A DNA stretch of 28,538 nucleotides. Origin: a virus. Below, piece after piece: positions 25,232 through 28,538 of the stretch (positions are counted from its first letter, which is position 1; each line of letters starts with the position of its first letter). The notes beneath the pieces were generated by a model that was not told the origin of the DNA, searched no databases, and worked only from the letters and a program-made list of their open reading frames with translations. The DNA is taken from IMG/VR virus record IMGVR_UViG_3300042288_000478, positions 1 to 28,538 of that record. One strand, 5' to 3'. The position numbers and the translations under genes are program-made.

Positions 25232-25548
25232 GAAGCACCTACGCTAAACGGATTGTTGAAGAACTTGGGTTCTATCGTAATACGCGTCTTGGTGAACTTG
25301 ATAGGGTTCTTAACAGGTTCTTTCGGTACTGGCTCCCAACTGGCAAAGGTATAGAACCGTTCCGTTACGCGATTAAGCCTCTCTGATCGTTTCTTGATGT
25401 ATCCATCATGAAGCAGTGCTCGAATAACGTACTTGGTTGTCGGAATACCAAGCCTGGTTTGTAGTTGAATCTCCTTGAATGTGGCTTCAGTCTTTCGCTT
25501 GGAAAGATACTTAAGCACCTTCATGTGGGATTCTGTCAGTTTTGTCAT
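25228..25548 (-). CDS. Winged-helix-like DNA-binding protein
   Basis: A 106-residue protein. The ATG at 25548 is preferred: it overlaps the upstream stop (ATGA) and has GGGAGG 8 bases ahead, while an in-frame start at 25578 would only add residues inside the upstream gene. Residues about 5-55 (SHMKVLKYLSKRKTEATFKE, then QLQTRLGIPTTKYVIRALLHDGYIKK) show the helix, helix, recognition helix and wing of a winged-helix domain. The rest is basic and Pro-rich. It may regulate the operon or help DNA replication. No effector domain is seen. Confidence 0.6.
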   Translation of the reverse strand: MTKLTESHMKVLKYLSKRKTEATFKEIQLQTRLGIPTTKYVIRALLHDGYIKKRSERLNRVTERFYTFASWEPVPKEPVKNPIKFTKTRITIEPKFFNNPFSVGAS

Positions 25549-25754
25549 GCCATGTCCTCCCGCAATGCAGCGTCCCATACCTTGTCATTAGCGCCTTTAA
25601 TGACTTCTGTGGTGGTGAATCGATGCAAGCAAGCGACACAGCGTCGCCTGCGTGTCACCCAAGAGTTCGCGGGTTTCTTACCACCATACCTGCGAGTCTC
25701 TAGGATGATCGTATCGTTGTGCTCACCACGTTCGGCGCACTTAGGACATAACAT
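25545..25754 (-). CDS. NrdR-type zinc-ribbon protein without ATP-cone
   Basis: A 69-residue protein whose start overlaps the upstream stop (TGATG). Four cysteines, Cys3-x2-Cys6 and Cys39-x2-Cys42, form a zinc ribbon. The second half, RRRRCVACLHRFTTTEVI, closely matches the N-terminal ribbon of the ribonucleotide-reductase repressor NrdR (RRR-x-C-x-x-C-x-x-RFTT). The ATP-cone that follows in NrdR is absent. A stand-alone ribbon can bind DNA or protein. Whether it targets host nrd promoters is unknown. Confidence 0.65.
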   Translation of the reverse strand: MLCPKCAERGEHNDTIILETRRYGGKKPANSWVTRRRRCVACLHRFTTTEVIKGANDKVWDAALREDMA

Positions 25755-28223: not shown

Positions 28224-28225
28224 CA

Positions 28226-28301
28226 CACTAGGAACATATGTATATAGCTAGTAATCTACCGTTCGTCGGGTAACTTGCCAAACGATATAGTCACTAGGTA
28301 C
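28226..28301. promoter_or_regulatory. Direct repeat CACTAGGWAC at the divergent promoters (candidate operator)
   Basis: CACTAGGAAC occurs at 28226-28235 and CACTAGGTAC at 28292-28301, nine of ten bases identical. The first lies in the -10/-35 spacer of the leftward promoter. The second overlaps the -10 box of the rightward candidate. The palindrome ACATATGT (28234-28241) is adjacent to the first copy. A shared regulator is a plausible reading. Two short copies could also be chance. Confidence 0.35.
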
Positions 28302-28304
28302 TAT
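28275..28304 (+). promoter_or_regulatory. Candidate rightward sigma-70 promoter
   Basis: TTGCCA (28275-28280; five of six matches to the -35 consensus), an 18-base spacer and TACTAT (28299-28304; four of six) predict a start near 28311. That start falls 6 bases before the first arm of the structured RNA candidate. Confidence 0.35.
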
Positions 28305-28310
28305 TCGCCT

Positions 28311-28419
28311 GTTGTCGTCGAAGTCAACAATCTGAAGGCCACTTACTCATGCTTCTACCCTTGACTTACCCCCAAGGGACTTCGACTAGGAGCAGCAGTA
28401 AGTGGCTTTTGTGTTTTTG
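28311..28419 (+). ncRNA. Candidate structured small RNA or leader with pseudoknot and terminator
   Basis: Three complementary pairs are nested out of order. Arm A, GTCGAAGTC (28317-28325), pairs with GACTTCGAC (28378-28386). Arm B, GCCACTTACT (28338-28347), pairs with AGTAAGTGGC (28397-28406), extendable outward by G-T, A-T, A-T to 13 bp. Arm C, CCCTTG (28358-28363), pairs with CAAGGG (28373-28378). A and B together form a pseudoknot around C. B is followed by TTTTGTGTTTTT, as in an intrinsic terminator. With the promoter at 28275-28304 this gives a transcript of about 105 nt. It could instead be a regulatory leader of a gene beyond the window. No known RNA family was recognised. Confidence 0.4.
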
Positions 28420-28427
28420 ACACTGGA

Positions 28428-28500
28428 TTGCAGACCAAAGTTAGCTGCAAGCAAGTGGGACTCAGAACCCAGCCAAGAAGCGACAACTCGGCATGAGTTG
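28428..28500. repeat. Two short inverted repeats at the right edge
   Basis: TTGCAG (28428-28433) pairs with CTGCAA (28445-28450) across 11 bases, and CAACTC (28484-28489) pairs with GAGTTG (28495-28500) across 5 bases. Neither has a T-tract. They lie in the otherwise unassigned right-hand 120 bases, where one frame on each strand is open to the edge but neither gives a recognisable protein. Confidence 0.4.
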
Positions 28501-28538
28501 GGCGGGCTTACCAGCGTCAACGGCGACTCTTGCTTAAA

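Follow-up and report, generated by a model that had tools for sequence, protein, structure and literature searches.

A pseudoknotted RNA, preceded by a promoter and ending like a terminator, as the probable front module of a mobile noncoding cassette in aquatic phages

We analyzed a 28,538-nucleotide stretch of viral DNA (IMG/VR record IMGVR_UViG_3300042288_000478, positions 1 to 28,538; here, the window). A structured element, RNA1, lies ~230 nt from the contig end and adjoins a set of leftward recombination genes that includes a YqaJ-type exonuclease, a RusA-like/PDDEXK nuclease, and others. Upstream of the leftward operon is a block (ACACTAGGAACATA..., positions 28224 to 28271) that is kept even where the class of RNA1 differs and is probably the leftward promoter/operator. 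Further inside the window, positions 25545 to 25754 (minus strand) encode a 69-aa protein that matches the NrdR-like zinc-ribbon N-terminal domain; the remainder of NrdR is absent.

An earlier note on this DNA had described three arm pairs at positions 28311 to 28419 in the order A-B-C-C'-A'-B', flanked by a promoter-like sequence and a T-tract. We located all three (A/A', B/B', and C/C') in the window sequence exactly as described, including the single base, G28378, that is common to A' and C'. From 28311 to 28418, the window strand reads P0 5' strand (GTTG), A, P0 3' strand, B, D, C hairpin, A', D', B', and T-tract (Table 1). Helices D and P0 are additional to the three arm pairs, and the element is larger than first reported. 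D extends B past a 2x2 internal loop (CA/GC), giving a B + D stem of ~18 bp with the C hairpin on top. The pseudoknot in the window is a pairing between the loop of the P0 hairpin, which is A, and a bulge of the terminator stem, which is A'; the ninth base of A, C28325, competes with P0. In other classes of RNA1, P0 is TCTGT/GCAGA (block parse of 73 cores; see below). The shuffled-sequence folding check that the earlier note had suggested gave a minimum free energy of -43.4 kcal/mol for the window RNA, compared to -25.1 +/- 3.7 kcal/mol for shuffled sequences (z, -5.0), with the pseudoknot not counted.

Table 1. Features of RNA1 and its surroundings in the window
Feature	Position	Strand	Sequence and remarks
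Sigma-70-like promoter	28275-28304	+	TTGCCA 28275-28280, 18-nt spacer, TACTAT 28299-28304; 9/12
P0 hairpin	28311-28314 / 28325-28328	+	GTTG/CAAC; loop presents A strand; 100% paired, one-sided changes only (56-sequence alignment)
A, pseudoknot helix 5' strand	28317-28325	+	GTCGAAGTC; pairs with A' 28378-28386, 9 bp
B, terminator stem 5' strand	28338-28347	+	GCCACTTACT; pairs with B' 28397-28406, 10 bp, 13 with AAG/CTT
D, 5' strand	28350-28357	+	TGCTTCTA; pairs with 28387-28394, 8 bp, one G-T
C hairpin CCCTTG/CAAGGG	28358-28378	+	Loop ACTTACCCC; stem 28358-28363/28373-28378, 6 bp, covaries
A', pseudoknot helix 3' strand	28378-28386	+	GACTTCGAC; bulge between C' and D'
D'	28387-28394	+	TAGGAGCA
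B'	28397-28406	+	AGTAAGTGGC
T-tract	28407-28418	+	TTTTGTGTTTTT; completes intrinsic-terminator-like end; T6 in relatives
RNA2 type a, 5' part	28419-28538	+	Contig end interrupts

To assess the fold by comparison, ~150 relatives (designated by L numbers where needed) were examined overall. They were gathered by independent routes: a recombination protein, exact B' patterns, the core of a second RNA (RNA2; see below), and a capsid protein. Two comparison sets were used, 73 distinct cores parsed in blocks and 56 sequences aligned with plain MAFFT. On the MAFFT alignment, 91.9% of cells were paired in the proposed structure, and the covariation score was 0.374, compared to 0.163 for shuffled alignments and 0.05 to 0.14 with slid partners. 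In the same alignment, A/A' was paired in 96.4%, with changes on both sides in 4 of 6 pairs, and the B + D helix changed on both sides in 12 of 18 pairs. The crossing helices of this H-type pseudoknot, A and B + D, thus each show compensatory changes. The earlier note had staked the pseudoknot on such changes in the A and B arms; they are strong in the relatives, the opposite of the outcome that it had named beforehand as refuting.

The 73 cores contain 27 distinct A/A' sequence pairs and 66 distinct C hairpins (middles). When the A/A' partners of these cores were re-dealt, pairing was found in 10 of 73 on average (maximum, 23); the block parse itself selects for pairing, and the fair figures are this control and those from the MAFFT alignment. 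Because B' patterns were used to retrieve most sequences, the set captures too little of the variation in B; no such selection applied to A. One position in D takes six standard pair types among the relatives. G-T pairs occur in B and D of the 73 cores, which identifies the plus strand as the RNA strand.

As an independent test, a covariance model of RNA1 (R1) was built without the A pairs and run on 100 loci that had been fetched by the RNA2 motif alone; among the matches listed, 77 loci had an R1 match ahead of the RNA2 core and in the same orientation. The distance to the RNA2 core was 89 nt at the median, and two more matches lay at 486 nt. Of the 68 distinct R1 hits, 55 satisfied a strict descriptor of the complete architecture with A/A'. 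Visual inspection of the other 13 showed an A/A' of at least 6 bp in 12, the exception being the truncated L253. Even more divergent pseudoknotted terminators are visible by eye at several loci lacking an R1 match. Used by itself, the descriptor found the architecture upstream of RNA2 in 77 of 118 loci, among the matches listed, compared to 0 of 118 reversed sequences. We conclude from the covariation and this independent test that RNA1 is a genuine pseudoknotted RNA.

The order of the pairing strands is identical to that of HDV-like (theta-type) self-cleaving ribozymes (P1-P2-P3-P3'-P1'-P2'), and theta ribozymes are known to occur in phages (PMC10879173). By definition, HDV-like ribozymes carry P4 and J4/2, with the catalytic cytosine, between P1' and P2' (PMC10879173). 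In the parsed cores of RNA1, however, A' abuts D' with 0 nt between them, which leaves no room for P4 or for a J4/2 with a catalytic C. RNA1 also differs in that its A strand lies inside the P0 loop, in its T-tract end, and in not lying as a rule beside tRNAs, and it has no match in Rfam. That RNA1 is such a ribozyme is extremely improbable.

The promoter-like sequence that the earlier note had seen 6 bases upstream proved to have a conserved placement. In the window, TACTAT ends at 28304, 6 bases ahead of P0. A promoter score of at least 8/12 was reached by 86% of the 73 relatives and by 7.7% of shuffled sequences, and among relatives with such a score, the -10 box always ends 6 to 7 nt before P0. 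Given this constant distance, the transcript should begin at P0, and the 5' end of the window RNA1 is likely 28311, the first base of P0. The sigma-70-like promoter is also the one feature that would point to action early in infection, as the earlier note had proposed. In L093 and L153, a second promoter (TTGACA/TATAAT) lies ~250 to 400 nt past RNA1 and is followed by another structured-looking noncoding stretch and then the capsid gene.

TTTTTT directly follows the stem in 70 of the 73 relatives, a set biased for the T-tract since the fetch patterns required at least T4 or T6. In the set fetched by RNA2 first, which is free of that bias, a run of at least 5 T was present in 63 of 68 independent relatives. 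RNA1 thus has the stable stem and adjoining U-run of an intrinsic terminator, and we think that the two probably work as one. A simple terminator scan, in which loops were limited to 3 to 8 nt, did not list the RNA1 stem. Both sequence and comparison bear out the earlier description of a small structured RNA with its own promoter and a terminator-like end. Like an intrinsic (Rho-independent) terminator or a leader attenuator, RNA1 places a stable stem and T6 between a promoter and an expressed-looking element; unlike either, its stem is very long and is pseudoknotted to a 5' hairpin loop.

The T-tract is absent from two lineages, L211/L306 and L305/L246, which have kept both the pseudoknot and RNA2. 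Their full pseudoknots lie at 2701 to 2807 of L211 (minus strand), 4149 to 4255 of L306 (plus strand), 3219 to 3308 of L305, and 2276 to 2375 of L246; in L211/L306, a lengthened B stem (CTAGTTGACC.../...GGTCACTAG) stands in place of the T-tract. Retention of the fold after loss of the T-tract indicates that the knot does more than stop polymerase; termination cannot be the sole role of RNA1. The put RNA of phage HK022 lets polymerase pass later terminators. As a structured RNA with which a phage transcript begins, RNA1 would resemble put antiterminators; it would differ from them in itself ending in a terminator.

Directly after the T-tract, nearly every copy of RNA1 is followed by a second structured RNA. 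RNA2 is a noncoding stretch of ~250 to 350 nt that is highly diverse and falls into at least five classes. It was seen directly downstream of RNA1 in L012, L016, L131, L168, and others. Positions 28413 to 28538 of the window are 98.4% identical to L062, where Rfam family RF02932 (Betaproteobacteria-1) overlaps this segment and runs on downstream with a score of 80.2 bits (gathering threshold, 49.4); the window, in which RNA2 is interrupted at 28538, has no Rfam match. RF02932 was found in L062, L044, L115, L116, and L168, in each case on the same strand, just past the RNA1 T-tract and inside RNA2. The family therefore belongs to RNA2 and not to RNA1. The other RNA2 classes examined gave no Rfam match; the class with the core CTAGGGGGCAGTTCCCGAA is represented by at least 120 stretches in IMG/VR. 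RNAalifold gave -104.7 kcal/mol for the plus strand of RNA2 and -94.4 kcal/mol for the minus strand. The stability of single RNA2 sequences is modest (z, about -0.9, with a lower z than the minus strand in 21 of 27), and the fold of RNA2 itself is less firmly shown. ARAGORN found no tRNA or tmRNA in RNA2 at 12 loci.

Judging from sequence, we saw no separate promoter for RNA2. The RNA1 terminator therefore occupies the position of an attenuator, between a promoter and a downstream element that appears to have none of its own. In this respect, the "conditional terminator" of the earlier note is supported by position, with a second structured RNA behind; the conserved anti-terminator fold that would complete it was not found in the relatives. 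The alternative pairing that had been pointed out, of B' (GTAAGT) with the C loop, is unconserved, a 6-bp Watson-Crick run between the two being present in just 6 of 73 cores, and A/A' and B/B' use separate bases. A further difference from a leader attenuator is that what follows RNA1 is, in most cases, a second noncoding RNA.

Class I RNA1 is combined with RNA2 types a to e, and class II with b, c, and unassigned types. The classes of the two RNAs thus reassort freely, indicating that no specific contact between them is conserved. These data bear on a second reading, in which RNA1 is the 5' domain of a single ~400-nt noncoding RNA. In that case, the U-tract would serve as a linker or be cut by an RNase E-type enzyme and would not be a terminator, and the pseudoknot would have a protective or positioning role. 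RNA2 is almost always behind RNA1 with no promoter of its own seen, and the two lineages that lack the T-tract retain both modules, as a single RNA would predict. However, free reassortment of the classes argues against it, and a T-run placed right after a stable stem (T6 in 70/73, at least T5 in 63/68) has the look of a selected terminator. We consider a single RNA unlikely; it keeps appreciable weight because the knot has a role beyond stopping polymerase.

In L145, an HNH-type endonuclease gene comes directly after RNA1 (374 to 470) and no RNA2 is evident; RNA2 is therefore not obligatory. This case, together with a promoter and terminator of its own and a compact stable fold, would suit an independent trans-acting small RNA, either antisense or a protein sponge, in which adjacency to RNA2 reflects only the co-mobility of two noncoding RNAs. 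An "antisense-type" regulator had been among the proposals of the earlier note. It gained no support here: no conserved unpaired seed was apparent, since A in the P0 loop pairs and covaries with A' within the same molecule and the C loop is unconserved and varies widely. The one candidate target examined, the first leftward gene (91 aa), has a GGGGTAA ribosome-binding site to which the C loop (CTTACCCC) could be antisense. This site is not conserved with the loop, many relatives with the same loop having AGGAG sites, and we rejected the candidate. An independent trans-acting role for RNA1 appears improbable.

We identified a single copy of the cassette per contig in each of 20 contigs searched. 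In relatives, it lies between scaffold and capsid genes or near terminase, replication, or recombination genes. Among members of one capsid family, scaffold and capsid genes are mostly 571 to 774 nt apart with RNA1 and mostly 180 to 260 nt apart without it, indicating that a block of ~400 to 450 nt has been gained or lost ahead of the capsid gene. Phage morons consist of a promoter, a gene, and a terminator inserted between core genes. The cassette likewise has its own promoter and terminator, occupies many genome positions, and is present or absent at a syntenic site; unlike a moron, it encodes RNA rather than protein, and its terminator precedes its second half. From these sequence features, we read the cassette as a noncoding phage "moron." Its single copy, sigma-70 promoter, and large structured RNA, with G-rich runs in RNA2 type b, could also be those of a replication-origin primer RNA of the ColE1 RNA II type. 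However, in five genomes that were long or complete, GC skew showed no turning point that coincided consistently with the cassette, and close relatives differ in its presence at the same site; we regard an origin primer as very unlikely.

Carriers of the cassette include many uncultured freshwater and marine phages. In named collections, sequence searches gave one phage record, MW202484. No cassette was found in plasmids, which gave 21-base matches only, and a scan of bacterial genomes gave one match that lacked the upstream fold and was judged to be chance. An exact 18-base match in L081, where the fold is absent, was likewise dismissed as chance. A close named relative of the window's phage, MW202825, whose capsid (84.6%) is the most similar among named genomes, has the RNA1 architecture in entirely different letters with RNA2 behind; this copy was missed by the model and found by the descriptor. 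MW202753, with a capsid almost as close, has no convincing copy of the cassette. In MW202484.1 (L324), the annotated hypothetical protein UOF77725.1 (33533 to 33892) overlaps RNA1 and RNA2 and is probably a spurious gene call. Six consecutive tRNA genes lie near the cassette in L131 (2346 to 2864, minus strand).

The reading that we favor, with moderate confidence, builds on what the comparison of sequences showed: the fold, the position of the promoter, the T-tract, the linkage to RNA2, modular reassortment, and gain or loss of the block. RNA1 would be a ~100-nt knotted RNA with a sigma-70-type promoter and a probable intrinsic terminator, serving as the front module of a mobile cassette in which RNA2 is made by read-through. 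Host-type polymerase would start rightward at P0. The P0 loop would present A, and once C and A' had emerged, A/A' would close. Pairing of D' and B' would then complete the long stem, and a compact, stable RNA, its two ends buried, would be freed at the U-tract. Any polymerase passing the stop would make RNA2, which would thus depend on read-through. We infer that termination takes place, either partially or under control, and that RNA1 and RNA2 both accumulate; the sequence of folding steps, how efficient the stop is, and any signal altering it are conjectural parts of this scheme.

It is possible, and we suggest it tentatively, that the mobile cassette of RNA1 and diverse, large, structured RNA2 is an undescribed, widespread system with a mechanism new to phage RNAs, one that many uncultured aquatic phages carry but that hardly appears in records of named phages. 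A search of part of the open-access journal literature returned nothing relevant on RNA1 or RF02932, and a prior description is possible. Reading phage genomes for their proteins makes it easy to overlook a noncoding cassette, even a recurrent one, as the annotation of MW202484 illustrates. With defined ends, a promoter, and compensatory pairs, the cassette is directly testable in a plasmid assay. If RNA1 and RNA2 do act jointly by a new mechanism, this would be categorically new. A single-copy RNA locus that moves among late, replication, and recombination regions, keeps its fold despite changes in nearly all of its letters, and is tied to a second structured RNA points to an RNA function under selection in many aquatic phages.
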